Source of the DNA: Tolypothrix sp. PCC 7712
GTDB lineage: Bacteria > Cyanobacteriota > Cyanobacteriia > Cyanobacteriales > Nostocaceae
Direction: 5' to 3'
NCBI RefSeq assembly: GCF_025860405.1
Contig: NZ_CP063785.1
Location: 6,821,390 to 6,885,389 of the forward strand
Length of the DNA stretch: 64,000 bases
The first letter of the stretch is position 1, and every line of letters begins with the position of its first letter. A model generated the notes under the pieces. The model was given only the letters and a program-made list of their open reading frames with translations, had not been told where the DNA came from and did no database searches. Of the stretch, positions 34,885-58,518 are shown one piece after another. Both the position numbers and the translations under genes were made by a program.

Positions 34885-35460
34885 AGCAATTTACAATTTA
34901 GAGTTTTAGCTTGTATTTTAATTATCTCAACTACTTTATCCAACAGTAAAAAATAGCATCTGGACTAATTTCGCATAAATGCTGACGCTATTGACGCTTA
35001 CCTTACCATTAAGGTTTCGTCCAAATATCTGTTTGTAAAGTCTAATTCCAGAACTTTCCAGATAAATGGCTAACTGGGAAAGGATGAGGGGGATGAGGGG
35101 GATGAGGGGGATGAGGGAGATGAGGGAGATGAGGGAGATGAGGGGGATGAGGGGGATGAGGGGGATGAGGGGGATGAGGGGGATGAGGGGGATGAGGGGG
35201 ATGAGGGAGATGAGGGAGATGAGGGGGATGAGGGAGACAAATAATTCAAAATTATGACCTGTTCCATGTTTACTTTTGGCTCAGAAAACTGGAAAAAGCG
35301 CAGATTTTTGTTAGGGGCTAATTTTTTTTGGGAAATCTAAATTCAGTAGGAAATCAATGTAATCACTAGCTATTTTGTGTTAAATCAAAAAAGCTAAAGT
35401 AAATTTTTTGTCAGATTGCGATCGCTAGCAACCTCTAACAGCTTTGAGGATAGAGTCGGT
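34885..35460. repeat. intergenic region with a 9-bp GATGAGGG tandem array
   Basis: The core at about 35075-35235 holds about 18 copies of a 9-bp unit (GATGAGGGG or GATGAGGGA). Unlike the heptamers elsewhere, its period is a multiple of three, so it gives long open frames on both strands (Met-Arg-Gly/Glu and Ser-Pro-Ser repeats) that are not genes. The rest is the divergent promoter region of lptA and the regulator. Confidence 0.88.
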
Positions 35461-37329
35461 GTGAAATTGTTATTGATAGAGGATGATGAAAGTCTTGCCC
35501 AATTGCTCAGAGCCACTCTCATTGCTCAGAACTACCAGGTAGAATTAGCACCAGATGGGCAACAAGGTTGGGATCTGGCGCAAAGTTCCGTTTATGACCT
35601 GATTGTACTGGATTTAATTTTACCCAAGCTTGACGGGATCAATTTCTGTAAACGCATCCGGCTACAAAATGGCAATGTTGCGCGATCGCCAAATCAAAAT
35701 ACGCCAATCTTGTTGTTAACTGCACTCGACAGCGTGATGAATAAAGTCATTGGGCTAGATGCTGGTGCTGATGACTATATGGTGAAACCAGTGGATCTCG
35801 ATGAATTTATGGCTAGGGTGCGATCGCTGCTGCGGCGTAGTTACATTACGCGATCGCCTCTGTTGGAATGGGGTGAATTATGCCTCAATCCTAATAATTG
35901 CCAAGTCACTTATCAAGGGCAGCCTATTCTTCTCACAGCCAAAGAGTATGCCATCTTAGAACTGTTTTTAAGAAATCCAGACCATATCTTCAGTGCTAGT
36001 TTATTAATTGATCGGCTATGGACGAGTGATGAAGCTCCCAGCGACTGGGCTGTGCGAACACATGTCAAAGGCTTGCGGAATAAATTAAAAAAAGCTGGCG
36101 TAGGAGAAATTTTTGAAACGATTTATAAGTTAGGATATCGCCTCAAACGCAGAGAACAGGAAAGCCCCAAAGAACAAGTTGCAACTTCGCCAATTTTGAC
36201 CCCATCATCACTCACCACATTTATTTCAGATGTGTGGGAAGAGATGCGCGAAACTTATTGCGATCGCCTCATGATTATTCAACAAGCTGTGACAGCATTG
36301 AAAAATGGTCAAATTTCCCCAGAATTGCAGCAGGCGGCAGAATATGAAGCGCACACTCTGATTGGTTCATTGGGTAGTTTTGGTTTAGGCGAAGCTTCCC
36401 GAATATCACGACAAATTCAGCAGATCCTCACGCAAGCAGAATCCATTTCTTCTTTACAAATCCAGCAACTAGTCCACTTGGTAAGTGCATTACAGCAGGA
36501 AATGCAATCAGCCGCAGCTCGAACCCATCCAGCACAGACAAGTGGCTCAAAGGTTGTTCATGGAACTAGCTTGCTGATTGTGGATGACGATGCAGTGCTG
36601 GCAAGGCATCTAGCCACGAAAGCCGCAATGCAAGGAATTGTTGTAGAAGTCGCCACAGATTTGCAGCAAGCCGAAAGTTTCTTGGTTGACCAGCTTCCAG
36701 ATGTGATATTACTGGATCTCAACTTTCCTGGTGCCCCAGGTAGCGGTTTAAATTTTCTCGCCACGCTATATAATCAGCACCCTAACCTACCAGTTCTGGT
36801 TTTAACGGCAAAGGAAGATTTTGCCCATCGCTTAGAAGCAGCTAGATTAGGCAGTAAGTTATTTTTGCAGAAACCAATTGCTGCGAATCAAGTTTTAAGA
36901 GCTGTTACTCAAGTACTGCAACAGTCAAGCCCAATTCCGCAAAAACTGCTGATTATGGAAGACGATCCGCAAATGTCGCATCTTTTGCGTCATATTTTGC
37001 AGCCTTGGGGTTATCATCTGACGCTAGTTGATTCACCACAAAATTTTTGGACAACTTTGGAGCAAACAGATCCCGATTTGTTGATTTTAGATATCGAACT
37101 ATCTGACTCAACTGATTCTCTATCTTCAACAATTAACGGACTTGATTTATGCCAAGTAATTCGTAATGATTTTCGCTGGCAGAAATTGCCTATTTTATTT
37201 TTATCAGCGCATACAGAGGCCGAGATTGTACAGCAATGCTTTGCTGCTGGTGGAGATGACTTTCTTTATAAATCCGCGATCGCAGCAGAACTCTTAACCC
37301 GTGTACGCAATCGACTAGAGCAGCGCTAA
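35461..37329 (+). CDS. multidomain response regulator (REC-wHTH-Hpt-REC-REC)
   Basis: The 622-residue protein is read from a GTG preceded by GAGGA about 10 bases upstream; a TTG 15 codons earlier is possible. It has an OmpR-type N-terminus: REC1 (acceptor Asp51 in LIVLDLILPKLDG), then a winged-helix DNA-binding domain to about residue 235 (ILLTAKEYAILELFL, RTHVKGLRNKLKK). An Hpt-like domain (about 265-345) carries the phosphorylatable His in EAHTLIGSLGSFGLGEA. Two further receivers follow: REC2 (about 375-490, VILLDLNFPG) and REC3 (about 500-620, LLILDIELSD). It could run an internal phosphorelay and bind DNA. No kinase is adjacent. Confidence 0.92.
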   Translation: MKLLLIEDDESLAQLLRATLIAQNYQVELAPDGQQGWDLAQSSVYDLIVLDLILPKLDGINFCKRIRLQNGNVARSPNQNTPILLLTALDSVMNKVIGLDAGADDYMVKPVDLDEFMARVRSLLRRSYITRSPLLEWGELCLNPNNCQVTYQGQPILLTAKEYAILELFLRNPDHIFSASLLIDRLWTSDEAPSDWAVRTHVKGLRNKLKKAGVGEIFETIYKLGYRLKRREQESPKEQVATSPILTPSSLTTFISDVWEEMRETYCDRLMIIQQAVTALKNGQISPELQQAAEYEAHTLIGSLGSFGLGEASRISRQIQQILTQAESISSLQIQQLVHLVSALQQEMQSAAARTHPAQTSGSKVVHGTSLLIVDDDAVLARHLATKAAMQGIVVEVATDLQQAESFLVDQLPDVILLDLNFPGAPGSGLNFLATLYNQHPNLPVLVLTAKEDFAHRLEAARLGSKLFLQKPIAANQVLRAVTQVLQQSSPIPQKLLIMEDDPQMSHLLRHILQPWGYHLTLVDSPQNFWTTLEQTDPDLLILDIELSDSTDSLSSTINGLDLCQVIRNDFRWQKLPILFLSAHTEAEIVQQCFAAGGDDFLYKSAIAAELLTRVRNRLEQR

Positions 37330-44527: not shown

Positions 44528-45181
44528 TTATAAGCCAGGTGAACAAACAGAATTGGCATAAATCGCGAGTTGGGCGCGATTTTTAATGTTTAGACGGTTA
44601 AAAATGCTATTGATATGGGTTTTAACTGTACTTTCTGAAATAAATAGCTGTTGAGCAATTTCTTGATTCGTTGCACCAACTGCAACTAACTTTGCTACAT
44701 CTAATTCTCTGGGTGTTAATGAAGATAATGCTGGGTGAATAGGTTGAGGTGGCGTTGGTTGGGCTTGTTTTTGCATAATTACTCGTTCTAACAGCCCAGG
44801 TGCGAGTTGTGCATATCCGCGATGAACGCTGCGAATCGCGTTAACAAGTTCTTCTGAAGGCATATCTTTTAAAAGATAACCTTTTGCACCAGAGCGAATG
44901 GCTTCATTCACATCATGGTCATCATCGTAAGTGCTTAAAACTAAAACTTTAACTTGAGGAAATTTTTCGCAGATGATGCGGGTAGCAGTAGCACCATTCA
45001 TCACTGGCATTCGCACATCCATTAATACGATATCTGGCTGTAATTTTTCAACTTGTGCAATTGCCTCTTCTCCATTTTCTGCCATACCCACAATTTCTAA
45101 GTCTGATTCTAAACTCAGCATTGCTTTCAGACCTTGGCGAACTAAACTTTGGTCATCTACAAGTAATAAGCGAATCATCAT
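44528..45181 (-). CDS. NarL/LuxR-family response regulator
   Basis: The 217-residue regulator has a receiver domain (about 3-120) with acceptor Asp55 in QPDIVLMDVRMPVMNG and the Lys of LLKDMPSEEL. It has a C-terminal LuxR helix-turn-helix (about 150-215: LTPRELDVAKLVAVGATNQE, STVKTHINSIFNRLNIKNRA). It is the output of the three-gene two-component run: the kinase gene (46894-45956), the kinase-like membrane gene (45696-45241) and this one are all on the minus strand in that order. The kinase-like gene lies 59 bp upstream. Confidence 0.95.
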   Translation of the reverse strand: MMIRLLLVDDQSLVRQGLKAMLSLESDLEIVGMAENGEEAIAQVEKLQPDIVLMDVRMPVMNGATATRIICEKFPQVKVLVLSTYDDDHDVNEAIRSGAKGYLLKDMPSEELVNAIRSVHRGYAQLAPGLLERVIMQKQAQPTPPQPIHPALSSLTPRELDVAKLVAVGATNQEIAQQLFISESTVKTHINSIFNRLNIKNRAQLAIYANSVCSPGL

Positions 45182-45240: not shown

Positions 45241-45696
45241 TTATTGGTCATGGGTAATTTGCCTTTTTTCTGAAACTAAAAGTCTGATATTGGGCAGTAT
45301 ATCAGATTTTTCATAGGTGGGTTGAATAAAGTAACTCCAACAACTTGGGAGATTTTGGCTTGGGTTTGACTCTAAGCAAACTACAGTATTTACTGTATCC
45401 ATGCTTCTGACAATTTGTCGGACTTCTCGCATCAATTCTCCACTTAATTGGTAAGCTTCAGTCAGCGATTCTTGTGCTTCTATTGGCTTGACTGTCCACA
45501 GTTTTTGCGCTGCTTGCAGTTGGATATTTAAAGCCATCATCGACTGACCTAAGCCTTTATACAAATTAATTAATTCATAATTCTTATCTTTAATTAAAAC
45601 TAATTGTTGAGATTTCTCTCGATAGATTGATAGTGCGTTTACTAATTGGCAAACTAGTATCAAGCACCCTAGGGTCAACAACAGAACAGGAATCAT
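45241..45696 (-). CDS. membrane-anchored histidine-less DHp-like protein
   Basis: The 151-residue protein has one N-terminal membrane helix (about 3-21, PVLLLTLGCLILVCQLVNAL), then a segment that aligns with the HisKA_3 dimerisation domain of the adjacent kinase: YKGLGQSMMALNIQLQAAQK versus HDSLGHALTALNIQLQTASK. The phosphoacceptor His42 of the kinase is replaced by Tyr46 here, and no ATPase domain follows. The tail (about 105-151) is not recognised. It cannot autophosphorylate in the classical way. It may be a modulator or membrane tether of the kinase. No equivalent protein name is known to me. Confidence 0.75.
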   Translation of the reverse strand: MIPVLLLTLGCLILVCQLVNALSIYREKSQQLVLIKDKNYELINLYKGLGQSMMALNIQLQAAQKLWTVKPIEAQESLTEAYQLSGELMREVRQIVRSMDTVNTVVCLESNPSQNLPSCWSYFIQPTYEKSDILPNIRLLVSEKRQITHDQ

Positions 45697-45955: not shown

Positions 45956-46894
45956 CTACCCTCTATCTTCTAACCATTCATGTAAATTGAGCGGTTGCCA
46001 TTCACCAATTGTTACTTGCTGGTATTGAAGTATGGGCTTTGATTCTAGGGAAATGGATATTTCAGGTATTAGTGATATGTTTGATAGTTCTTGTATTTGA
46101 GGTATTTGAGGTATTTCGGGTATTTCATCTAATTGATGAGGCATTTGGGGGAGTTGGGGTAGTTCCCGAATTGCACCTAAGTTATTAGTTATTTCGTGAA
46201 TATTATATATTTGCATAGGGATTTCAACAGTTATGCAACAACCTGCTCCAGGCTGCGATACTAATTGAAAATGTCCTTGTAAAACGGCGATGCGTTCTTG
46301 CATTCCCCGCAGTCCATAACCATTGGCTACTTTTTGGGCATCAAATCCCCGGCCGTTATCTTGAATAGTTAAATAAACTCCATTTGCTGTTGTGGAAAGA
46401 TGAATTTGTACTGCCGTTGCTTGAGCGTATTTACGAATATTATTGAGTGCTTCTTGGATAATGCGATAAAGGGGAGCAGTAAACTGAGGTAATAAAGCGA
46501 TCGCTAAATTCATCTCAACTTCCGGTACAATCCCCGTGGTTAGATGAAAATCCCGTACTAACGATTCAATCAGGGTTTCGAGAGATTTACCAGCCAAGGG
46601 ATCGCTGCGTAAAGCTTTCACAGATTGTCGGACTTCTTGAGTGGCGATCGCAACTAATTTATGTGCTTCATCTAGAAACTCTTGCGCTTGATTGGGATCG
46701 GGTTTGCAAAGTTTACTTGCTGTTTGTAGTTGAATGTTCAGCGCTGTGAGGGCGTGTCCGAGAGAATCATGTAATTCTCGCGCAATACGGTTACGTTCTT
46801 GCGCGGCTGAAAGATTAGCAAATTCTAAGACGCACTGCCACAACTGCTGATGCATCTGACTGAGTTGTTCCGGTGTATACAGATCTTCTAGCAA
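45956..46894 (-). CDS. cytosolic NarX-type histidine kinase with Pro-rich tail
   Basis: The 312-residue kinase has no sensor or membrane segment. The HisKA_3 domain starts near residue 30 with the phosphoacceptor His42 in RIARELHDSLGHALTALN. An HATPase domain follows (IIQEALNNIRKYAQA, DNGRGFD, ANGYGLRGMQERI) and ends near residue 220. The last 90 residues are a Pro/Ile/Gln-rich tail with repeats such as PEIPQIPQIQE. It should phosphorylate the NarL-type regulator downstream. Signal input is probably through a partner; the adjacent membrane DHp-like protein is an obvious candidate. Confidence 0.92.
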   Translation of the reverse strand: MLEDLYTPEQLSQMHQQLWQCVLEFANLSAAQERNRIARELHDSLGHALTALNIQLQTASKLCKPDPNQAQEFLDEAHKLVAIATQEVRQSVKALRSDPLAGKSLETLIESLVRDFHLTTGIVPEVEMNLAIALLPQFTAPLYRIIQEALNNIRKYAQATAVQIHLSTTANGVYLTIQDNGRGFDAQKVANGYGLRGMQERIAVLQGHFQLVSQPGAGCCITVEIPMQIYNIHEITNNLGAIRELPQLPQMPHQLDEIPEIPQIPQIQELSNISLIPEISISLESKPILQYQQVTIGEWQPLNLHEWLEDRG

Positions 46895-47568
46895 GGTAAT
46901 CCCTCCGTAACTTTCAGCTAATTTCTTATAGTTCTGGGTGGGGGAGACTTATGCAATATTGGGGATGGGGGATAGGGTAATGAGTAATGAGTAATGGGTA
47001 ATGAGTAATGAGTAATGAGTAATGGGTAATGAGTAATGGGTAATGGGTAATGGGTAATGGGTAATGGGTAATTGGTAATTGGTAATTGGTAATTGGTAAT
47101 TTATTCTCCCTCTGCTCCCTGCTCCCTGCGCCCCTGTTTCCCCTACTTCCTCTGCCCCCTGCGTCCTTATTCGGGAATATTAGCCTGTAATGTTAATGTA
47201 TCGACTTACATAGCGATTGTATCGCGTAACATCGTTAATGTATCGATTTACATTGCGATTGTATAGGTTCACATTGTTAATGTATCGATTTACATTGCGA
47301 TTGTATGGGGTCACATTGTTAATGTATCGACATACATTGCGATTGTATGGGGTCACATTGTTAATGTACGCGATGCAAAGCTTTACTAAGAGGTTGTTGG
47401 AAAAGTTGCCCACCCCACAAAATGGATAATGAAGTCTATAAGTCCAATCCTCAATCCCCATTACCCCTTATCCCCAGAGGGGGCCCCGAGTTCCCCAATC
47501 CCCAGTCCCCAGTCCCCAGTCCCCAGTCCCCAGTCCCCAGTCCCCAGTCCCCAGTCCCCAGTCCCTAA
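46895..47568. repeat. 674-bp repeat-rich region upstream of the kinase and after the CHAT gene
   Basis: From left to right: TAATGAG/TAATGGG/TAATTGG heptamers (about 46977-47100); TCCCTCTGCTCCCTG blocks (47105-47165); a 42-bp tandem array (47192-47376, listed separately); and about 11 CCCCAGT heptamers (47488-47565). No gene is supported; ORFs of 70-93 residues here are products of the 42-bp repeat. Confidence 0.88.
47192..47376. repeat. 42-bp tandem repeat array (iteron-like)
   Basis: Four full units begin at 47192, 47234, 47276 and 47318, with a partial fifth at 47360. Each starts GTTAATGTATCGA and contains GCGATTGTAT. Within each is a short palindrome, AATGTA-6 bases-TACATT. Units differ at a few bases. 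The 42-bp period is a multiple of three (14 residues in frame), but the frame has no known product. Regularly spaced palindromes could bind a regulator. Confidence 0.85.
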
Positions 47569-50205
47569 CTAAGTCCAATTTCCTAGCAATACGAAGGCTC
47601 CCCAGTAGTAAGGTGATTGATAGTCTGGGTTCTTTAAAATTGAAAGTTGGGCAAGTCGGAGGGCTTCGGCTTTGGAGATACCTGTTTCCTTGGCTTTGAC
47701 TAGTTGATCGTAAAAGTTGCTCATGAGTTTGGCTGTGGCTTCATCGTCAACGCGCCAGAGTGTTGCTACTGTACTGCGTGCGCCGGAACGTACGGCTACG
47801 CCTGCTAATCCTAGGGCGGAACGATCATCACCGGCTGCAGTTTCGCAAGCGCTGAGTACTAAGAGTTCCAGGGAGTTGCTGCGGGATACTTCGACTGTTT
47901 TTAATACACCACTGAGTTCGTTAACTTTGATTCTGCCATCCCAGGTGAGAATAAAGGTTTCATCGGCTTGAGAACTAAATTGCCCGTGGGTTGCTAAGTG
48001 GACAATGGGGAAGGAAACAGCAGCAATTTGAGATTGAAAGGCGGAACTAGTAAATTTTTGGTTAATCAGAACTTCAGAAGGTAGTTCTGATTTGATTTTT
48101 TCGACTTCTTGCTCAACATTGGGTAGGGCTTCAAATCCCGAACGCGCTTCACTCAGTCCACCTACTAATGCTCCCAAGCGTTCTTGTTTTAGCGATCGCG
48201 GTGCTAATAATTGTAATCCTGGTGTGAGGGCTATGCTGTATTTCTCTACGAGATACTGTTTACCATCATGCAGTGCTGCTATGGGAATGTTCCGCAAAAC
48301 TCCATCTAGGACAAATACCAATGTCTCTACCTGACTTGCGGCTAAGTCCTCTGCTTCTGGGCGAACTACTAAATCATACATTTTTTGCAGTTGCGGCAGT
48401 GTCAGGTCAAGTACTGTATCTTGGTTTAGACTTCTGCGGAGACGAGATGCGCGTTTCTCAATCTCGTCGCGGCTGATAGGAGTTTTATAGTAGCGAAAAT
48501 CGCGGCTATCTTTGGTTTCGGCTTTGTTTTGGGAGTTGGGTAAGCTGGCAATAATCGCGAGTTGATTTTCTAGAATAATCGGGTAAATGACTGCGGCTTT
48601 TCTATCAACTTGATCTATTTGTGCAGGGTTTCCATTCAGACAAGCTTCGCGGAAGAAGTTATCGAGTTCGACTAATTGCAATCCTTCAATGACATCGCGC
48701 GCCGTCTTTAAATTATCTTTTTGATTGGATTCTATAAGTAAGGCGACGAGTTGACGGTGAATAGGTTCAACGGCTTCGCGGAAGGAAAATTGCACATCAG
48801 GGTTAGCGGCGGCTAAGTCTGCACGCAGAGATTTAATTGTACCGACGGCTTCTTTATAAGCGGCGATCGCACTTTCTGTTTTTCCTTGAGCTTTCAACAC
48901 TCTACCTAATTGCCATTGCCAACGGTAGGCGATATCGCCAGCGTTGATTTGTTGTCCTAATTGCACTGCTTGTTGAGTTAATTTTTCTGCATCTGCCCAC
49001 AGTTGTGTTTGTTCGTAAACGTGACCTAAACTACCTATGGCATCAGCTTGTATCCGTACATCGCCTAAATCTTTAGCTTGTTGCACCGCTATCGCCAGCA
49101 GTTTAGCGACTTCTTGCCAGTCAATCTGCTCAACCGCTTGCTTTTGCATTTGGATCATTGTTTGCGCCAAATTTACCCGTGATGCGATCGCACTCCGGCT
49201 AGCAGGTAATACTGCAATTTGTTGTTGTACCTGTGGTAACAAGGCTGTGGCTGCATCTGGCTGCTTTGTCTCTACTAACAAGCTGAGTTGGTTAACTTGC
49301 GCTTGCACCCTTAAATCTGGTATTCCAGACGCGGCGGCTTGTTGGTAGTAATTGAGTGCAGTCTGAGGATCAATCTCAGTCTTGTTCGCTTTATTCAAGC
49401 TGATTTGCGCGCGGGTGAGATTACCGAGGCTGATTTGGTTGAGAGTGACGATTTCAGGTAACTTTAACTGCTGTGCGATCGCTAAACTGCGTGACAAAAT
49501 TAAATTAGCTGGAGCAAAATTCCCCACCACCCGCAACGACTCACCCAAAGTTCTTAACGCCGTTGCTGTTTCTGGTGTTGCAGCTACTTTTTCTATCGCT
49601 GGTTTGAGTTGTTCAGTTTTACTACTAGAAATCTGCGGTAACTTTAAAGCTGTTTCCAGTAGAGAAATTGCTTTTTTATAAAGACCTAAATTTTGAAAAG
49701 CCTGTGCTTGATTAACTTGACTTGTCAGCACCTTACTTGGTTTCTGCAACTGAGTATATAAAGATGTTGCACCTTCCCAAGATTTCAAAGCTGCTTCCGC
49801 TTGACCGCGTGCTAATTGTAACCCACCTTGAATATCTAAAGCTTGAGCCAAAGCCAATGATTTCTCAGCTTTTATCTCTTTAATAGTATTTAAAATAGCA
49901 ACACTTTCAGTAATTGCCCGGTTCGCATCATCCCACTGTCCCAACTGTTGATAACACAGCGATAGATTACTCAAACTCAAAGCTTGACGGATTGGATCTT
50001 TAGCCGCTTGATAACCCTGTGCTGCTTGTTGAAACAACTGTACCGCCTCTGCAAATTGCCCTTTAGCGTATGAATTTCGCGCCTGCTGTTCCACCGATAA
50101 ACTCGGAACTTGAGCAATATTTGCCACTTGCGCTAACCCTGGCGATGACATGGATAATAAAGCTGCGATCGCCATCAACACCACAAACCTTTTAATCCTT
50201 TTCAT
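47569..50205 (-). CDS. secreted TPR-CHAT protein (caspase-fold peptidase-like)
   Basis: The 878-residue protein has a signal peptide (about 1-26, FVVLMAIAALLSMSSPGLAQ). A helical repeat region with many TPR units (about 35-470: NSYAKGQFAEAVQLFQQAAQ) follows, then a C-terminal CHAT domain (about 610-878). The CHAT dyad is present: His740 in IVHLATHGQF and Cys787 in LVLSACETAAGD. CHAT domains are caspase-like proteases. Its export sequence would place it in the periplasm or outside. It lies 72 bp after the first TpsA-type exoprotein gene on the same strand. The substrate is unknown. Confidence 0.92.
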   Translation of the reverse strand: MKRIKRFVVLMAIAALLSMSSPGLAQVANIAQVPSLSVEQQARNSYAKGQFAEAVQLFQQAAQGYQAAKDPIRQALSLSNLSLCYQQLGQWDDANRAITESVAILNTIKEIKAEKSLALAQALDIQGGLQLARGQAEAALKSWEGATSLYTQLQKPSKVLTSQVNQAQAFQNLGLYKKAISLLETALKLPQISSSKTEQLKPAIEKVAATPETATALRTLGESLRVVGNFAPANLILSRSLAIAQQLKLPEIVTLNQISLGNLTRAQISLNKANKTEIDPQTALNYYQQAAASGIPDLRVQAQVNQLSLLVETKQPDAATALLPQVQQQIAVLPASRSAIASRVNLAQTMIQMQKQAVEQIDWQEVAKLLAIAVQQAKDLGDVRIQADAIGSLGHVYEQTQLWADAEKLTQQAVQLGQQINAGDIAYRWQWQLGRVLKAQGKTESAIAAYKEAVGTIKSLRADLAAANPDVQFSFREAVEPIHRQLVALLIESNQKDNLKTARDVIEGLQLVELDNFFREACLNGNPAQIDQVDRKAAVIYPIILENQLAIIASLPNSQNKAETKDSRDFRYYKTPISRDEIEKRASRLRRSLNQDTVLDLTLPQLQKMYDLVVRPEAEDLAASQVETLVFVLDGVLRNIPIAALHDGKQYLVEKYSIALTPGLQLLAPRSLKQERLGALVGGLSEARSGFEALPNVEQEVEKIKSELPSEVLINQKFTSSAFQSQIAAVSFPIVHLATHGQFSSQADETFILTWDGRIKVNELSGVLKTVEVSRSNSLELLVLSACETAAGDDRSALGLAGVAVRSGARSTVATLWRVDDEATAKLMSNFYDQLVKAKETGISKAEALRLAQLSILKNPDYQSPYYWGAFVLLGNWT

Positions 50206-50277: not shown

Positions 50278-53200
50278 TTAAGATTTGGGACACATAGCAG
50301 AACTACTCGTAGCAGCAGGTGTTGCTGTTGGCGCTTCGGCAACTAACATAATATTACCGTCAGACGTTTTCACTAACCCTTGCGCCTCAACAATTTGTGA
50401 AGAATTCCCCCCATCTTCCTTGACTCGCTTCTCTGCGTCAGTCTCTACAATTCTCTGTAATTTAATATCAGCATTTTCTCCATCCAAACTAGCTAAAGGA
50501 CTGAGGCTAGTTGTCAAAGCCAGTGGTTGCAAAACATTAGGTGGTAAACTACCGCGTCCAGTGACGACAAAGCTACCCAAAGGTTTTGCGTTGTAGTCTC
50601 TAGGGCAAATTTGAGCAAATTGAGTAGTAGCGTCAATTAATCCTGTAGGCAGTTCCAGCAGTTTTTGTGGCGGTTGAATATCTGGCTGAGAAATAGTGAT
50701 TTGTCCCTGTACGCCTAATTCAGAACTTGCAGTGATATCGCTTTGATTTGTCTGCTGGGGACGTGCTTCAGTTCCAAAAATATTTTGCACATTGATGTTA
50801 ACATTACCACCTTTACCACTAAAGGCATTGGCGGAGATATCGCTGTTTTCATTAGGTAAAGCGACAATGAAGGGTGAATTGATAGTGATGTTACCGCCAT
50901 CGCCACCAGCTTGTTGAACGCCTGCTGTAGTTGTTACAAAACCACCGCTGCGTAAAAGTAAGAAATCACGGATATCAAGAGTTATATTGCCACCGTTACC
51001 AGCCAAAGTAGCAGCTGTGATCCCTGCTTTATTGGAAATGCGGACATTACCAGCTTTGATATCAATATTTCCAGCATTACCAGTAGCACCAATACCGACT
51101 GCACTAAAGATACCGCTTAAACTACTGCGACGCTCGATATTCTCAAGGTTAAGAATATTACCACGACCCGCGCCATCGAGAATTATCGTATCACGGGCTT
51201 TAATGGTAATATTACCTGCATCGCCTTTGGCTGAGGTAGTACTACTAATTGCTCCACCAAATACAGACAACGAACCAGTTGTGAGGTTAATCTCACCTCC
51301 CTTACCCTCACCTTGATTTTCGAGAGTGGTATAAACTCCACTGGGCAATCCATTGCTGCCAACACCCTCAAAGGTAATACTGTCAACAGCATTAATTGTA
51401 ATGTTGCCTGCATTGCCATTACCCACACTGCTGGCAATCATTATCCCACCGTTACGTGCTGTCAAGGAGTTAGTTGTTACTTCTATGTCTCCAGCCTTAC
51501 CAATACCTCCATCAAATAGAATACTCAAAAGACTACTGGAAAATCCATCTCTATCTACACCATCAACAATAACAGCATCATGAGCATTGATAGTGATATT
51601 ACCTGCATTTCTAAGCGCAGCAGTTAAAAAAGTACCACCATTTGTTAATGAAAATGTTCCAGTATTTACTTGAATTTTGCCGCCATTACCACTTTCTGTT
51701 GCATAAGAATTTAAACTACTGCCATTGTCAATCACAACTCTATCAAGAGTATTAATAAAGATGCTGCCAGCATTACCTTGTCCAGCACTAAATGTATCTA
51801 TTTGTCCACCATTGTTTAACAATAACGCCTTTGCATTGACCTGAATATTACCACCATTACCAATGGCATCAGACAGTACTACACTACCAGCGTTACTCAT
51901 AAAACCATTGCGGCTTACACCATCAAACGTTACTGTATCACGAGCGTTAATCGTAATATCACCTGCATCTCCTTTCCCACCTGTATTGCTAGAAATTTGT
52001 CCACCATTAGTGACTGCAAGTGAACCAGTTGTAATTTGAATCTCTCCGCCCTTGCCTTCACCACTAAATAAGTTACTTTGCAAGCCACTACCAATATCAA
52101 CAACAGTACCACTAGGTAGAGTAACGTTAGAAATGAAACCATTAACTTCAACAGTATCACTGGCTTCTATGGTAATATTACCTGCCTGTCCTTTTCCTAA
52201 TATACTGGTGGACATTCGACCACCATTGGTTAAAAACAGCGCTCCAGTTTTTACCTGAATACCACCAGCATCGCCATTATATGCATAAGTAACAGCAGCG
52301 CTGTTTAAACCGTTACCATCAAAACCGTCAAAAGTTATGCTATTTTTAGCCTCAAGAAATATATTGCCTCCATTACCTTCACCACCGTTAAAAGCTTGTA
52401 GAGTACCGCCGTTTTGGAACAACTGCGTATTTGCACTAATGCGAATGTCACCGCCATTACCAATACCCCTCAAATCAACATTGCTTGAGGCTTGACTATA
52501 GATCGAAGTTTCACCAGCAAAACCTGCAAAAGTAACCGTATCGCGGGCGTTGATGGTAATGTTACCTGCATTCCCCTGGCCGCTTGTACTGCTAGATATA
52601 TCCGCACCATTAGTAACAAAAAGTGAGCCAGTTGTGACGCTAATATCTCCAGCTTTACCAACTCCTCCAGTAAGTAGACTACTACTTAGTCCACTTGTGC
52701 TATCAAAGACATTACCATTGACTTCACGAGTTGTTACACCATCAAGTTTGACAGTATCACGGGCTTCGACTGTAATATTACCTGCGTTGCCTTGGCCTAA
52801 TACATTAGTAGATATGTTACTGCCATTCGTGAACAAAAGTGACCCGGTTTTTACTCGAACATCTGCGCCGTTACCTACTGCATCAGTAAAAACATTACTC
52901 ATAACACGAGCATTTGTATCAAAGCTGATGGTGTCAAAAGCATCGATGATAATGTTGCCCGCATTCCCTCTTCCTGAAGTACTAGCGCTGATCAAAGCAC
53001 CGCTTGTCATTGAAAGACTACCAGTTGTTAGCTGAATGTCTCTAGCATTTCCTACACCTGAAGGATTAACAGCACTAATAATGCGGCTAAATATATTGCT
53101 ATCATTCCCAAACCCATCTAAAGAAATCGTATCACGGGCATTGATGGTGATTTTTCCGCCATTACCTTCTCCCAGAGTTCTGGTGTTGATTTCTGAACCC

Positions 53201-54846
53201 TCAATTATCGACAGCGAACCAGCTTGAATATCTATGCTACCGCCGTTACCCACCGCACCTGTTTCTACAGAACTATAAATACCAGTAGCATTTTTAAGTA
53301 AAACACTATCTTTTGCTTGGATTAAAATATTACCAGCATTACCTTGTCCATAAGTGCTTGCACTAAGTTCACCGTTATTTAGGAAAAGTGAGGCAACATT
53401 GATATTGATATTGCCTCCATTTCCTCGCCCAACGGGAAATTCCTGAGAAACTCCACTGACATCTGTTGATAATGTCGCACCATCACTGAGAGTTAGGGAA
53501 TTGGCTTTGATATGAACACTACCAGCATTACCTACACCTCCACTCGCCACGCTGCTATAAATAGCTGTATCGCTACCTAGAGTTACAGCATCAGATGCTT
53601 GTATAAATATATTGCCTGCATCACCTTGCCCAATAGTGCTGACATTAATTATTGCTTCTTTATCTAAGGTCAACAAACCTGTGGTGATATTAACATCACC
53701 AGACTTACCAAATGCTCGTTCGCGCACAGAGTTGCTGATAATGCTTTTCTCAGTTACATTTGTTGTCCCTGTGGCATTAATTACCACATCTCCACTTTGA
53801 CTATTTGCTGTACCTAAACCGATTTCTATGCCGGCACGCAGTTTACTGTCCCCAGTTAAGTTTACATTTCGCCCATTAATTTTGATGTTCCCGCCATCGG
53901 CACCCCGGACGTTGACTTCTGCGCCATTGCTGAGAGAAACATCTGCACGTTCTACGCTATCGGGTATCGCTAAACTGGGTAAATTATTAGCAGCAATATT
54001 CAATCCTACTGTTGCGGGTGCATTCATAGCCGCTAATTCAATATTGCCACCGTAAGCCCGCAGTCCCCCACCATCAATGTTGATATTTCCACCAATTAGC
54101 AATAGATTCTGATTATCTGCGACTCTTAATCCTGTAACATTTTCACCCGCAGGACTGATACCCGCTGCGGCTTGGGATTGATTGGTAATTGGTTTGGGAT
54201 TTATCTGATTAAACAGCAACGCGGAAGGATTAACAGTTAATAAAGGTGGTGCTTCGGGATTTGTGGCGCTGAAAATTCCTTGATTGCCAAATTGCACAGC
54301 ATTGGCGGTAGTTCCCACAAACGAACCGCGCACATCTAAGCGCGCATTTTGACCAAATAAAATGCCGTTGGGATTAATTAAAAATAAATTGGCAATCCCA
54401 TCTACTCCCAATGTGCCGAGAATATTTGAAGCTTGTCCACCCGTCACCCGCGTGAGAATATTTTGCACGCCTGCAGGGTTGCCAAAATATACTCGTTGCC
54501 CATCATTAATATTAAACTCGCTAAAACTGTGAAACAGATTGCTACCACGTACAGCACCGCCATCAATTTTGTCTGCATTTGCACCATTAATTAAAACATT
54601 GGGTGTGATGCGAGAACTTTCTGCGCCTAAAGTATTATCGGGGTTGATTTGACTGTAGGCTGGGGCGCTGCTGAAGAAGATGAAGCTGCATAATATGAGC
54701 TTTGGTTGCCCAATTATCATTGCGAGTATTCGCCAAAAACCATTTTGAAAAGAAGTGCGATCGCATTTAGCTCCCTTTATTCTACGTCGTTTCACTAGCA
54801 ACTTAGGATCACAATTACCTTGGAGCCAGTTTTGTATCTGATTCAT
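50278..54846 (-). CDS. two-partner-secretion exoprotein (TpsA-like), copy 1
   Basis: The 1522-residue protein has a long N-terminal extension with signal sequence ending near AYSQ (residue 66). The TPS/haemagglutination-activity domain follows (about 67-215: INPDNTLGAESSRITPNVLI, FHSFSEFNINDGQRVYF, LFLINPNGILFG). A very long right-handed beta-helix built on GNAGNI-type repeats comes next, then a C-terminal block (ELPTGLIDATTQFAQICP, KPLGSFVVTGRGSLPPN, ending AMCPKS). TpsA proteins cross the outer membrane through a TpsB pore; none is encoded in this window. It is likely a surface adhesin or biofilm protein. The basic extension is nearly identical to that of copy 2. Confidence 0.93.
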   Translation of the reverse strand: MNQIQNWLQGNCDPKLLVKRRRIKGAKCDRTSFQNGFWRILAMIIGQPKLILCSFIFFSSAPAYSQINPDNTLGAESSRITPNVLINGANADKIDGGAVRGSNLFHSFSEFNINDGQRVYFGNPAGVQNILTRVTGGQASNILGTLGVDGIANLFLINPNGILFGQNARLDVRGSFVGTTANAVQFGNQGIFSATNPEAPPLLTVNPSALLFNQINPKPITNQSQAAAGISPAGENVTGLRVADNQNLLLIGGNINIDGGGLRAYGGNIELAAMNAPATVGLNIAANNLPSLAIPDSVERADVSLSNGAEVNVRGADGGNIKINGRNVNLTGDSKLRAGIEIGLGTANSQSGDVVINATGTTNVTEKSIISNSVRERAFGKSGDVNITTGLLTLDKEAIINVSTIGQGDAGNIFIQASDAVTLGSDTAIYSSVASGGVGNAGSVHIKANSLTLSDGATLSTDVSGVSQEFPVGRGNGGNININVASLFLNNGELSASTYGQGNAGNILIQAKDSVLLKNATGIYSSVETGAVGNGGSIDIQAGSLSIIEGSEINTRTLGEGNGGKITINARDTISLDGFGNDSNIFSRIISAVNPSGVGNARDIQLTTGSLSMTSGALISASTSGRGNAGNIIIDAFDTISFDTNARVMSNVFTDAVGNGADVRVKTGSLLFTNGSNISTNVLGQGNAGNITVEARDTVKLDGVTTREVNGNVFDSTSGLSSSLLTGGVGKAGDISVTTGSLFVTNGADISSSTSGQGNAGNITINARDTVTFAGFAGETSIYSQASSNVDLRGIGNGGDIRISANTQLFQNGGTLQAFNGGEGNGGNIFLEAKNSITFDGFDGNGLNSAAVTYAYNGDAGGIQVKTGALFLTNGGRMSTSILGKGQAGNITIEASDTVEVNGFISNVTLPSGTVVDIGSGLQSNLFSGEGKGGEIQITTGSLAVTNGGQISSNTGGKGDAGDITINARDTVTFDGVSRNGFMSNAGSVVLSDAIGNGGNIQVNAKALLLNNGGQIDTFSAGQGNAGSIFINTLDRVVIDNGSSLNSYATESGNGGKIQVNTGTFSLTNGGTFLTAALRNAGNITINAHDAVIVDGVDRDGFSSSLLSILFDGGIGKAGDIEVTTNSLTARNGGIMIASSVGNGNAGNITINAVDSITFEGVGSNGLPSGVYTTLENQGEGKGGEINLTTGSLSVFGGAISSTTSAKGDAGNITIKARDTIILDGAGRGNILNLENIERRSSLSGIFSAVGIGATGNAGNIDIKAGNVRISNKAGITAATLAGNGGNITLDIRDFLLLRSGGFVTTTAGVQQAGGDGGNITINSPFIVALPNENSDISANAFSGKGGNVNINVQNIFGTEARPQQTNQSDITASSELGVQGQITISQPDIQPPQKLLELPTGLIDATTQFAQICPRDYNAKPLGSFVVTGRGSLPPNVLQPLALTTSLSPLASLDGENADIKLQRIVETDAEKRVKEDGGNSSQIVEAQGLVKTSDGNIMLVAEAPTATPAATSSSAMCPKS

Positions 54847-54978: not shown

Positions 54979-57900
54979 TTAAGATCCGGGACATACAGCA
55001 GAACTACTAGTAGCCGCAGGTGTTGCTGTTGGCGCTTGGGCAACCAACATAATCTTACCGTCAGCCGTTTTCACAAAACCTTGTGCCTCAATAATTCGCG
55101 AAGTATCTGGCAGATTTGCTGTTGGGGATGCATTCGATATATTGCTGAAACTTTCCCCATCCAAACTAGCTAAGGGACTGAGGCTAGTTGTACCTGTTAA
55201 TGGTTCAAAGGAATTGGGCGGTAAACTACCGCGTCCAGTAATAACAAAGCTACCCAAAGGTTTTGCATTGCGTCCGTTGGGGCAAATTTGGGCAAATTTA
55301 GTACTAGCGTCAACTAATCCTGTTGGTAGTTCGATGAGTTTTTGTGGCGGTTGGACTTGTGGTTGAGTGAAGATGATTTGTCCCTGTAAGCCTAATTCCG
55401 AACTTGCTGTGATATCACTTTGATTTGTCAGTTGCGGACGGGGTTCGATCCCAAAGATAGCCTGAGTGCTGAGGCTAACATTACCACCTTTACCAGTGAA
55501 GGCATTAGCGCTAATGTCGCTGTTCTCGTTGGGTATTGCCACAATAAAAGGTGAATTGATGTTGATGTTACCGCCATTGCCACCAGCCTGTGCCCTACCT
55601 GCGGTGGTAGAAATTAAACCGCCACGGCGCAACAGTAATAAATCACCAATTTCGAGAATGATGTCTCCACCGTTACCTGCATTTGTCAAAGATGCGATCG
55701 CACTTCCTTGACCATTAATTTCTACAAGATTAGCCTTAATTCTCATATTTCCGGCATCACCATTACCTGTACTGCCGGAAAAAATTTCAGCATCATCACG
55801 GACAACAAGGCGATTGGTAGTAATATCTATCTCACCACCTTTACCATTAGCTCTTTCGTCAACGGATGTGATTAAGCCAGTTATCAACTCGCTGTCTGAA
55901 CCTGTCAGGATAATATTATCAGCTTGTACTGTTAAATTACCCGCGTTGCCATTTCCTTGAGTTCCTGATGATATCTGCGATTGTTCTTGTACATTTAATA
56001 GTTGAGTTTTGATGCTGATATTGCCAGCATCGCCTGTAGCAACATTATCTACTTGAGTGATAATGTTGCTACTTCCACCCATATTAATTTGCTTGGCATT
56101 AATCGTAATTTTTCCTGCATTACCTTGATTAAAGGTGGTGGCAGAAATTTGTCCTTGATTGCTGAGGTTTAAGCGTCCTGTTGTTACATCAATGTTTCCC
56201 CCAGAACCAATGCCTCCAATTTGCAAGTCGGCAAATAAACCTGATGGCGCAAAAGAATTATCAATTCTTTGGGGGCCAAACCCAGAAATATCAATAGCAT
56301 CAGTGGCACGAACCAGCAAATTACCCCCTTGTCCTCTTCCCAGAAGTACTGAAGTCGATATGTTTGCACCATTACTCAACCGCAACCTTTCTGTATCAAT
56401 AGTTATCGTGCCACCATTTACATCTACATTACTGCCGTTAACCTCAGAGGAGATTCTACTGATAAAGCTGAAACCACCAAAGCGAGATAAAGTTTCTTGT
56501 GCTAACGGCTTAGACAAAACTGCTTGCACAGTAGGGTAATCTAGGCTTATCAACTGTTCCTGAGGTACGAAAACAAACCCATCTAGTTCTAAATCCTTGG
56601 CGCGGATAGTAATATCTCCAGGATTACTACTGCTTGTAGAATCAGTGCTGATATTTCCCCCTTGAGTTAGGCTGAGTCTGGGTGTTTGTATCGTGACATT
56701 ACCTCCATTCCCCTTTGCCTCAAAACCTGTTTGACTTGATACACCACTCAAGTTTAGAAATGTTGCAGAAACACCACCAATCTCTACAGACTCATCAGCT
56801 TGGATAAAAATGTTACCTGCATTCGCACTGCTAAAAGTGCTTGTACTAATATAGCCCCCATCTTTGAGACTAACTCGTTGGGTTTCAATGGTAATATCCC
56901 CCACGCTTGCTTGAGATGTACTTCCGGGTTGAACACCTGTAAGGATGCTGCCATTAGTCACCTCAACTGCATTCCTAGCTTGAATAGAAATAGAACCCAC
57001 CGTTCCAGCACTAGTATTTGCTGTGATTCCTCCTTCTGGGGAGGTATTTTGAACTCGCAAAGTGCCAGTTTCAATTCGCAGGTTACCTGTTGAACCTGAA
57101 CTCAAGCTAGAAAGTCCTAAAATAGCTTTGTCGGTTATATTTACAGCATCTTTTGACCGTACAGTGAAGTTTCCCGCTTTACCTACACCCGCAGATATAA
57201 CAGAGACAGCACCGCCATTGACATTAACAGACTCAGTAGCATTAAGGTTCAGGTTTCCTCCATTACCTGCACCAGTGGTATTTACTGAGATAAAACTGGT
57301 AAGACCGGTATTTTGTAAGATTCCATCTCCGGTAATTGTGATTTTTCCAGCATTGATAGTAACATCGCCACCCGTACCCGTAGCTGAAGGATTGTTAGTG
57401 GATAAAATCGAGCTACCGTTAGCAAGAGTAACTGCATCGCTGGCTTGAATTTGAATATCACCCCCGTTCGCTGCACCAGTAATAGCGCTCTGAATTGAAG
57501 ACTTTTGATCTAAACTCAGTTGTGTTGCATCAATCACAATTGAGCCGCCATTGCTCCCAAACATAAACGAATTGTTGAGCTTAATGTCACCTCCAAATAG
57601 TTCACTTTCACTATTGCCAATTGCCAGGATGAAGCTACGATTATTTAAGTTGATGGATTCCCGTTGTAAATTTTCTGGGTAGTTGAAATTTAAGGATGAG
57701 TCATTAACATCCAAGCCAACTGTTGTATTTCCCGCCACAGATCCTAGTTTCACTTGTCCATCGAAGGCAAATAATATACCTCCATCCAAGATAATTTCAC
57801 CGCCTACTAGTGCTAGGGTACTTCCAATAACACCTAAACCGTTAACAGCTTGATTAGTAATACTTGCAGGTTGAGAACCAAACTGCAAACCAATTGGAAC

Positions 57901-58518
57901 ATTGATAGCTAATAAAGGTGGTGCTTGGGGATTGGTGGCGCTAAATTCAACTCCATTGGGAAAGACTAAGCTATTGGCTGTAGTTGCTGTAAATGCTCCC
58001 CGAATATTTAACTGAGCATTTTGCCCAAATACAATGCCATTGGGATTAATTAAAAATAAATTGGCATTACCATTAACTCCCAATGTGCCCAAAATATTCG
58101 AGCCTTGTCCACCTGTCACCCTTGTGAGAATATTTTGTACGCCTGCAGGGTTGCCAAAATACACTCTTTGCCCATCATTAATATTAAACTGAGTAAAACT
58201 ATGAAACAGATTACTACCACGTACAGCGCCACCATCAATTCTGTCGGCGTTTGCACCATTAATCGGAACATTTGGTGTAATAAGAGAACTTTCTGCCCCT
58301 AAAGTATTATCGGGGTTAATTTGACTGTAGGCTGGGGTGCTACTCAGTAGAATGAGGCTGCATAATATGAGCTGTGGTTGCACAGTAATCATTGAGAATA
58401 TTCGCCAAAAGCCATCTTGAAAGGAAGTGCGATCGCATTTAGCTCGCTTTATTCTACGTCGTTTCACTAGCAACTTATGATCACAATTACGTTGGAGCCA
58501 GTTCTGTATCTGATTCAT
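54979..58518 (-). CDS. two-partner-secretion exoprotein (TpsA-like), copy 2
   Basis: The 1179-residue protein repeats the plan of copy 1. It has the same N-terminal extension with only a few differences in the first 50 residues, the TPS domain (FHSFTQFNINDGQRVYFGNP, LFLINPNGIVFG), and a shorter beta-helix. The same C-terminal block is present (ELPTGLVDASTKFAQICP, LGSFVITGRGSLPPN, ending AVCPGS). The divergent middle and conserved ends suggest duplication followed by repeat turnover. It starts 132 bp upstream of copy 1 in the transcription direction. A shared upstream sequence (AGGTGTAACTTATGCA on the plus strand) precedes both copies, so the regulatory region was copied too. Confidence 0.93.
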   Translation of the reverse strand: MNQIQNWLQRNCDHKLLVKRRRIKRAKCDRTSFQDGFWRIFSMITVQPQLILCSLILLSSTPAYSQINPDNTLGAESSLITPNVPINGANADRIDGGAVRGSNLFHSFTQFNINDGQRVYFGNPAGVQNILTRVTGGQGSNILGTLGVNGNANLFLINPNGIVFGQNAQLNIRGAFTATTANSLVFPNGVEFSATNPQAPPLLAINVPIGLQFGSQPASITNQAVNGLGVIGSTLALVGGEIILDGGILFAFDGQVKLGSVAGNTTVGLDVNDSSLNFNYPENLQRESINLNNRSFILAIGNSESELFGGDIKLNNSFMFGSNGGSIVIDATQLSLDQKSSIQSAITGAANGGDIQIQASDAVTLANGSSILSTNNPSATGTGGDVTINAGKITITGDGILQNTGLTSFISVNTTGAGNGGNLNLNATESVNVNGGAVSVISAGVGKAGNFTVRSKDAVNITDKAILGLSSLSSGSTGNLRIETGTLRVQNTSPEGGITANTSAGTVGSISIQARNAVEVTNGSILTGVQPGSTSQASVGDITIETQRVSLKDGGYISTSTFSSANAGNIFIQADESVEIGGVSATFLNLSGVSSQTGFEAKGNGGNVTIQTPRLSLTQGGNISTDSTSSSNPGDITIRAKDLELDGFVFVPQEQLISLDYPTVQAVLSKPLAQETLSRFGGFSFISRISSEVNGSNVDVNGGTITIDTERLRLSNGANISTSVLLGRGQGGNLLVRATDAIDISGFGPQRIDNSFAPSGLFADLQIGGIGSGGNIDVTTGRLNLSNQGQISATTFNQGNAGKITINAKQINMGGSSNIITQVDNVATGDAGNISIKTQLLNVQEQSQISSGTQGNGNAGNLTVQADNIILTGSDSELITGLITSVDERANGKGGEIDITTNRLVVRDDAEIFSGSTGNGDAGNMRIKANLVEINGQGSAIASLTNAGNGGDIILEIGDLLLLRRGGLISTTAGRAQAGGNGGNININSPFIVAIPNENSDISANAFTGKGGNVSLSTQAIFGIEPRPQLTNQSDITASSELGLQGQIIFTQPQVQPPQKLIELPTGLVDASTKFAQICPNGRNAKPLGSFVITGRGSLPPNSFEPLTGTTSLSPLASLDGESFSNISNASPTANLPDTSRIIEAQGFVKTADGKIMLVAQAPTATPAATSSSAVCPGS

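Follow-up and report, generated by a model that had tools for sequence, protein, structure and literature searches.

In the genome of the cyanobacterium Tolypothrix sp. PCC 7712, a gene for a small membrane-anchored protein lies between the genes of a histidine kinase and a NarL-type response regulator, and the protein that it encodes carries a DHp module of the histidine kinase type in which tyrosine occupies the site of the phosphoacceptor histidine. The locus therefore raises the question of what a DHp that stands alone and cannot be phosphorylated at the usual site might contribute to a two-component system whose kinase is complete. We analysed it within a stretch of 64,000 nucleotides (contig NZ_CP063785.1, positions 6,821,390 to 6,885,389, referred to here as the window), the relevant features of which are collected in Table 1, and by comparison with the genomes of other Nostocaceae and more distant cyanobacteria. 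An earlier note on this DNA, made from the letters alone, had placed a 151-residue protein between a NarX-type kinase and its NarL-type regulator, and the position and length that it gave were confirmed.

Table 1. Features of the locus and of the window around it (positions are those of the window)
Feature	Positions	Strand	Length	Details
Small Tyr-DHp protein, stand-alone, membrane-anchored	45241..45696	(-)	151 aa	ATG start
Tyr46 codon, phosphoacceptor site	45559..45561	(-)		Numbering from the ATG at 45696
NarL-type response regulator	44528..45181	(-)	217 aa	Response_reg + GerE (Pfam)
Soluble kinase	45956..46894	(-)	312 aa	HisKA_3 + HATPase_c (Pfam), TTG start
Short ORF upstream of the kinase	47180-47461	(-)		Repeated units; likely repeat DNA
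TPR-CHAT protein	47569..50205	(-)	878 aa	CHAT, E 2e-59 (Pfam)
Large TPS-domain protein	50278-54846	(-)		Upstream of the TPR-CHAT gene; TPS domain, E 4e-50 (Pfam)
Large TPS-domain protein	54979-58518	(-)		Upstream of the TPR-CHAT gene; TPS domain, E 2e-54 (Pfam)
Large TPS-domain protein	59014-63429	(-)		Upstream of the TPR-CHAT gene; TPS domain, E 2e-53 (Pfam)
ABC exporter	8791-11121	(+)		ABC_membrane + ABC_tran, C-terminal HisKA unit, then a second unit
DnaB helicase gene, intein-bearing	1170-3053	(-)		DnaB domains + Intein_splicing
Multi-domain regulator	35416-37329	(+)		Three receiver stretches + Trans_reg_C + Hpt in one protein

Architecture and distribution of the three-gene unit

The small protein consists of a hydrophobic helix at about residues 1-20, a helical linker, a HisKA_3 DHp that Pfam places at residues 48-100, and a variable C-terminal tail. 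HisKA_3 (PF07730) is its sole Pfam match at E values up to 1; the match spans positions 12-64 of the 68 in the profile and scores 35.7 bits (E 1.3e-8), above the cut-off of 24, and at the same threshold no HATPase_c domain was detected in the 151 residues. When its DHp stretch (INLYKGLGQSMMALNIQLQ) is aligned with that of the neighbouring kinase (RELHDSLGHALTALNIQLQ), Tyr46 falls opposite kinase His42, as had been proposed, and Lys47 falls opposite an Asp; the tyrosine recurs in all 24 of the small proteins described below. The added membrane helix and the missing ATPase domain of the earlier description are likewise borne out, the Kyte-Doolittle maximum (19-residue window) being 1.99 or higher in each of the 24 small proteins. 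AlphaFold2 predicts helices at residues 2-34, 40-69 and 71-110, with low confidence, at a pLDDT of 52 from an input of four near-identical sequences. The kinase of the window has no sensor domain by Pfam, and the corresponding maximum stays at or below 1.44 in all 23 kinases encoded next to a small gene, a fragment included, which agrees with the view that the kinase has neither a sensor nor a membrane domain of its own. About 30 residues at its N-terminus are conserved, and at its C-terminus, after a long variable linker, stands a conserved motif, (G/S)EWQ(P)L, which is a candidate binding motif for a partner. As a site specific for the small protein EWQ was rejected, since it is kept in G513 and G353, two genomes without the small gene, and reads KWQ in a third, G518.

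A profile built from nine small proteins was searched against 217 Nostocaceae genomes, the scores in this and the other genome searches being those of the best candidates of each genome only. The small gene was found in 24 of the 217, as short-frame matches of at least 94.7 bits among the matches listed, with open frames of 125-167 aa; the next match, at 70.7 bits, lies in a frame of 411 aa. In every one of the 24 genomes the gene sits between a kinase gene (or a kinase remnant) and a regulator gene, with the regulator homologue directly downstream, and it was never seen outside this locus; two drafts (L047 = G509 and L059 = G514) have a broken kinase or regulator gene. The trio is conserved, a recurrence beyond chance, and the small protein is best read as a third component of this two-component system. 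Co-occurrence of the three genes, which the earlier note had suggested as a check, thus holds wherever the small gene is found, and a strain-specific truncation of a longer kinase, which it had named as the outcome that would count against its reading, is rejected, the gene being present in 24 genomes in forms that all have Tyr and are too short to hold an ATPase domain. Outside the Nostocaceae, no other stand-alone Tyr form turned up among the matches listed from a search of 388 genomes of the order with a single sequence, or among those from a profile search of 386 genomes of the phylum, two sets that overlap. Three odd short frames (G350, G187 and G110) were ruled out because they have His or a missing start. 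In G430, whose genome gave no small-gene match, a frame of 143 aa (L142) is the remnant of a broken trio-type kinase with His, consisting of a kinase-like start and then a stop.

A kinase profile recovered 26 orthologues at 397 bits or more among the matches listed, with the next match at 308 bits. Small genes adjoin 23 of the 26, and the 24th small gene (G509) has the lower-scoring kinase remnant. Two genomes of one genus, G513 and G518, have the CHAT-TPR, kinase and regulator genes with the small gene absent at the locus and, at E 1e-5, without a short match in the rest of the genome, so that the pair of kinase and regulator can exist without the small protein, which is dispensable to it. 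In G353 the kinase is kept with neither the small gene nor the regulator beside it.

The order TPS exoprotein, TPR-CHAT, kinase, small gene, regulator is widely common across the loci. Among 27 of them (the 24 with the small gene plus G353, G513 and G518), a TPR-CHAT relative occurs in 23, directly adjoining the kinase in 18, and an ORF related to the TPS proteins in 14, some loci ending at contig ends; the Pfam domains of these neighbours are those of the window. The gap between the small gene and the regulator gene ranges from -26 to 249 nt in the 21 of 24 loci that were measured, with the overlap of 26 nt in G381 and G399, and the distance to the kinase gene is 142-456 nt in 20 of these loci; G514, where the kinase frame is broken, has 644 nt. 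Scans for promoters (10 found against 8.9 expected) and for terminators (1 against 2.7) gave results at the level of chance. From the position of the genes, the trio probably regulates the adjacent TPS/TPR-CHAT genes. The short ORF upstream of the kinase in the window is made of repeated YINNVTPYNRNV-like units and is likely to be repeat DNA rather than a gene.

Origin of the tyrosine form

The DHp had been read as copied from the neighbouring kinase, in which the string ALNIQLQ is identical. This view is not supported. In a midpoint-drawn tree of 91 distinct DHp sequences (21 small, 21 of trio-type kinases, taken from loci that have the small gene and from loci that lack it, and 49 others), the small sequences form one clade of their own with an SH-aLRT of 99.8, and a longer tree, also midpoint-drawn, agrees, with 20 small sequences in a clade of 100/100 support. 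ALNIQLQ or close variants of it are common in cyanobacterial HisKA_3 kinases, and a recent copying from the neighbour is rejected. As the trees are drawn, G431 branches first within the small clade; its site reads 'FYDAIGHS' (LAALQEQNRIALNFYDAIGHSIAALNIQLQVAHKLW). This protein keeps Asp at +1 and His at +5, having lost the phosphoacceptor His alone, and its alignment with L062 (LAALQERNRIARDIHDSLGNALTTLNIQLQTALKLW), a kinase that has a CA, needs no gaps and shows 48% identity over the compared stretch. We infer from G431 that the change from His to Tyr preceded the loss of the Asp. The best reading traces the small protein to a HisKA_3 histidine kinase whose ATPase domain was lost and whose phosphoacceptor His was replaced by Tyr. 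Descent from a membrane kinase was also entertained and withdrawn; the nearest relatives of G431 (L062, L013, L017 and L002, at 41-48% identity) have the DHp near the N-terminus. Profile matches to membrane kinases of ~410 aa extend through the TM and linker, and the membrane-kinase group of the longer tree, which was set by length alone, includes soluble kinases, e.g., L081, L013 and L062.

A second Tyr-DHp form is polytopic, with 303-382 aa, five or six hydrophobic segments and a DHp that reads 'SYDALGH'; the member in G405 has 185 aa and one hydrophobic segment. In five of these proteins scanned with Pfam, HisKA_3 alone was above cut-off and no ATPase domain was found. The form occurs in seven of the 217 genomes (G400, G405, G406, G439, G440, G441 and G520), at 364 bits or more among the matches listed, the next match having 200 bits, and in 376 genomes of the order no match above 187 bits was among those listed. 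Asp at +1 is present in seven of seven and His at +5 is kept, the phosphoacceptor alone being lost. An ORF of 1094-1113 aa precedes the polytopic gene in all six loci with enough flank, and the one that was scanned, in L148, is LanM-like (DUF4135 + LANC_like by Pfam); the polytopic proteins (loci L147-L154 and L191) possibly regulate a lanthipeptide-like locus. Another HisKA_3 kinase, in frames of ~560-740 aa, lies within ~20 kb on the same contig in six of the seven genomes and on another contig in G441; a regulator stands beside that kinase in the five loci looked at, and no hydrophobic segment was found in these kinases where tested (G520 lay outside the test). The single-TM and polytopic forms are joined in a quick tree from the DHp alone, at an SH-aLRT of 75.9 and under a long-branch warning, and lie apart in the longer tree; an AU test did not reject joining them (p 0.397). 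The quick tree, too, keeps the small proteins in a clade apart from the neighbouring kinases. Tyr-DHp proteins may have arisen in the Nostocaceae once, or twice in parallel.

The association between Tyr and the lack of an ATPase domain was examined in 139 distinct DHp sequences, a similarity-based sample around the small protein and its relatives that is no census and in which the Tyr sequences represent one or two origins. The site holds His in 110, Tyr in 28 and a gap in one, Tyr being the sole non-His residue seen. With a CA profile made from the trio kinases, matches were obtained in 107 of the 110 His proteins, in the gap protein and in none of the 28 Tyr proteins, where the sequence beyond the DHp match is never longer than 48 residues. 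The three His proteins without a match are L193, L145, cut off by a stop after 220 aa, and L181, which runs to the edge of its stretch, so that loss of the CA need not bring Tyr. L193 (1375-2415, in G437) is a polytopic HisKA_3 protein with His kept and no ATPase match after the DHp, and is a possible intermediate.

Within the window, the earlier note had also drawn attention to a Tyr in the second DHp-like unit of an ABC exporter that adjoins glycosyltransferase genes. The Tyr is indeed there ('MSYDFRTSLN'), but the DHp match of this protein is to HisKA (PF00512), another family, and covers the first, His-bearing unit only ('ISHEIRTQLN'); the exporter is a parallel His-to-Tyr case.

Docking surface and possible roles

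The contacts that DesK makes to its regulator DesR involve Q193, S196, L200, D203, R206 and R235, in the part of the DesK study that is drawn upon here (PMC5231405). These map to Q51, M54, I58, Q61, Q64 and R93 of the small protein by an alignment that is gap-free over residues 22-103 but weak (phmmer E 0.018). I58, Q61 and R93 are invariant among the small proteins, and the Q51 site is Q in 20 and H in four. After removal of near-copies (leaving 17 small and 11 kinase sequences), the mean entropy of the small proteins is 0.40 at the six docking sites against 0.98 at the other sites from +1 to +54, a modest contrast in which related sequences are counted as independent (permutation 0.040; polar sites only, 0.035). 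The H-box half (-12 to -1) has a mean entropy of 1.56 bits in the small proteins against 0.26 in the kinases, N39 and L42 being conserved within an otherwise variable stretch, and positions +3, +7, +10 and +14, presumed from helical spacing to form the dimer core, stay hydrophobic. It appears that the lower half of the DHp, which would serve dimerisation and regulator docking, has been kept and the autokinase H-box half left to drift.

The transmitter phosphatase motif of HisKA_3 proteins is DxxxQ/H, with H as the variant, and from work of Huynh in 2010 the +1 Asp is said to matter for the phosphatase of NarX. Gln or His is found at +5 in all small proteins (Q 20, H 4 of 24), and Asp at +1 in one of 24, the residues after Tyr being N10 K8 Y2 H1 S1 D1 Q1 as against Asp in 22 of 22 aligned kinases. 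In the phosphatase state of DesK, His188 is buried, Gln193 positions a water and Asp189 bridges to the regulator, and the same portion of that source describes the +5 Gln as the water-positioning residue of HisKA_3 phosphatases and the phosphatase of NarX as not needing the phosphoacceptor His (PMC5231405). Since 23 of the 24 no longer have this Asp, it is doubtful that the small proteins are true phosphatases, and the safer interpretation is docking or sequestration; we are unsure whether the small protein dephosphorylates the regulator.

Caulobacter DivL, with Tyr at the His site, has no kinase or phosphatase activity and binds DivK~P through its docking module, according to the sections of PMC4211667 used here. 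Since the docking positions are kept and the H-box has drifted, and given the parallels with DesK and DivL, our preferred model is regulator docking by a kinase-dead DHp: the small protein may be a DivL-like membrane protein that binds the regulator and adjusts its level of phosphorylation, a reading to which we give a probability of roughly 0.47. Also in its favour are the trio and the Tyr common to all 24 genomes, the forms that have lost the phosphoacceptor alone (G431 and the polytopic proteins), and the spacing of the genes, the small gene overlapping that of the regulator in G381 and G399 and standing at least 142 nt from that of the kinase where measured. The small protein would homodimerise at the membrane, and its DHp would bind the NarL-type regulator at the surface where regulators usually dock. 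It would then compete with the soluble kinase and hold or dephosphorylate the phosphorylated regulator, the sign of the effect being presumed, and output, probably from the adjacent TPS/TPR-CHAT genes as putative targets, would depend on the state of the membrane. Tyr perhaps locks the DHp core in a regulator-docking (phosphatase-like) state.

Because docking and dimer positions overlap, the conservation pattern also fits the heterodimer that the earlier note had favoured, in which the small DHp would pair with the DHp of the soluble kinase as Tyr and His protomers, tether the kinase to the membrane and supply or block its input. The hydrophobic dimer core, the segment present in 24 of 24 small proteins and in none of 23 kinases, the lack of a sensor domain in the window kinase and the HisKA_3 kinase near the polytopic gene in six of seven genomes are all consistent with such a pairing, and full-length ChrS and HrrS heterodimerise in a two-hybrid assay, although CA-truncated ChrS gave no significant heterodimer signal, a result that its authors treat with caution in the portion of the study cited (PMC9491836). 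Evolutionary distances separate the two models poorly. The two loci with a broken kinase or regulator (L047 and L059) were left out of the mirror-tree work and the kinase alignment, for which 22 of 24 were used, and the partial correlation of whole-protein distances is 0.67 between small protein and regulator against 0.23 between small protein and kinase. At the level of domains, the coupling of the small protein to the receiver given the kinase is 0.32 (that to the DNA-binding part of the regulator being as high, 0.42) and the coupling to the kinase DHp given the regulator is -0.008, the difference between regulator- and kinase-coupling being non-significant (bootstrap -0.09 to 0.63). Most residues just before the Tyr drift, and G513 and G518 have both kinase and regulator in the absence of the small protein. 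These pairs and the kept docking positions make an action on the regulator at least as likely as the heterodimer, and we regard the latter as possible but with the odds against it.

A sensor of the phosphorylated regulator, likewise modelled on DivL, would bind that regulator and feed back to the soluble kinase, leaving the regulator's phosphate untouched. The Tyr substitution and the docking module are as in DivL, with docking positions and presumed dimer core both conserved, but the PAS and CA domains that are the proposed conformational carriers in DivL are absent from the small protein, and we consider this role unlikely. Much less probable still is a vestigial gene, i.e., a decaying kinase remnant without function. 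The small gene does outpace its neighbours (mean distance 0.85, as against 0.43 for the kinase and 0.23 for the regulator, over 22 taxa), and two of six pairs with dS below 0.1 give it a dN/dS of 0.75 and 1.23; yet its frame is open in 24 of 24 genomes, 16 columns, Tyr included, are invariant, and dN/dS is 0.14-0.48 in seven pairs with dS above 0.1. In the same seven pairs the kinase gives 0.03-0.23 and the regulator 0.03-0.16, from which it follows that the small gene is under selection, less tightly than its two neighbours.

A broader and more tentative proposal, for which we would put the chances noticeably short of even, is a three-component class made up of a soluble kinase, a regulator and a CA-less membrane Tyr-DHp, the last being the core of a histidine kinase turned into a dedicated, phosphate-blind regulator-binding or phosphatase subunit, in which Tyr would be specifically selected, with the single-TM form at TPS/CHAT loci and the polytopic form at LanM-like loci, and with an origin in the Nostocaceae that was single or twice parallel.

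Relation to known systems

The closest parallel is DivL, which the small protein resembles in having Tyr for His and a conserved docking-surface patch, and DivL itself signals without kinase activity, its CA domain being dispensable (PMC4211667, in the part cited). Unlike DivL, a large PAS-DHp-CA protein in which other HK motifs are kept, the small protein is a HisKA_3 DHp of 151 aa with one hydrophobic helix, shows HisKA_3 alone by Pfam, with neither PAS nor CA, and is encoded inside its kinase-regulator locus. ChrS_CA-fs of Corynebacterium glutamicum, a laboratory-evolved membrane kinase whose CA is destroyed, enhances the signalling of a paralogous kinase, for which its own DHp is required; as far as the cited portion of that study goes (PMC9491836), it is a laboratory mutant in which His is present though dispensable, whereas the small protein is natural, widely shared and fixed for Tyr. 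To the HisKA_3 kinases DesK and NarX the small DHp is similar in its gap-free alignment and conserved docking positions, and it differs from them in lacking the His and the CA and in having one hydrophobic helix. The Synechocystis split kinase Hik36/Hik43 likewise divides a function over two proteins and a regulator (PMC7656254); in the part of that paper referred to, one partner carries the HPt and the other has the CA, whereas the kinase here is complete, with both CA and phosphoacceptor, and its partner has neither.

Searches of the open-licence full-text literature found DivL, ChrS and Hik36/43 and, among the papers listed, no stand-alone DHp fixed for Tyr. The parts (a HisKA_3 DHp, a pseudokinase, an accessory membrane component) are known and the combination is new, and the evidence points to the small protein as an unusual third component. 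DivL is one large multidomain protein, and the small protein reduces the Tyr-DHp idea to a membrane helix and a DHp. The three genes form an easily studied unit, for which the relatives that keep Asp at +1 and the genomes without the small gene allow direct tests of what a phosphate-blind DHp does, of whether the change from His to Tyr locks a docking or phosphatase state, and of how a soluble kinase that is without a sensor receives its input. For the filamentous cyanobacteria that carry it, the small protein is a candidate regulator of TPS/CHAT loci.
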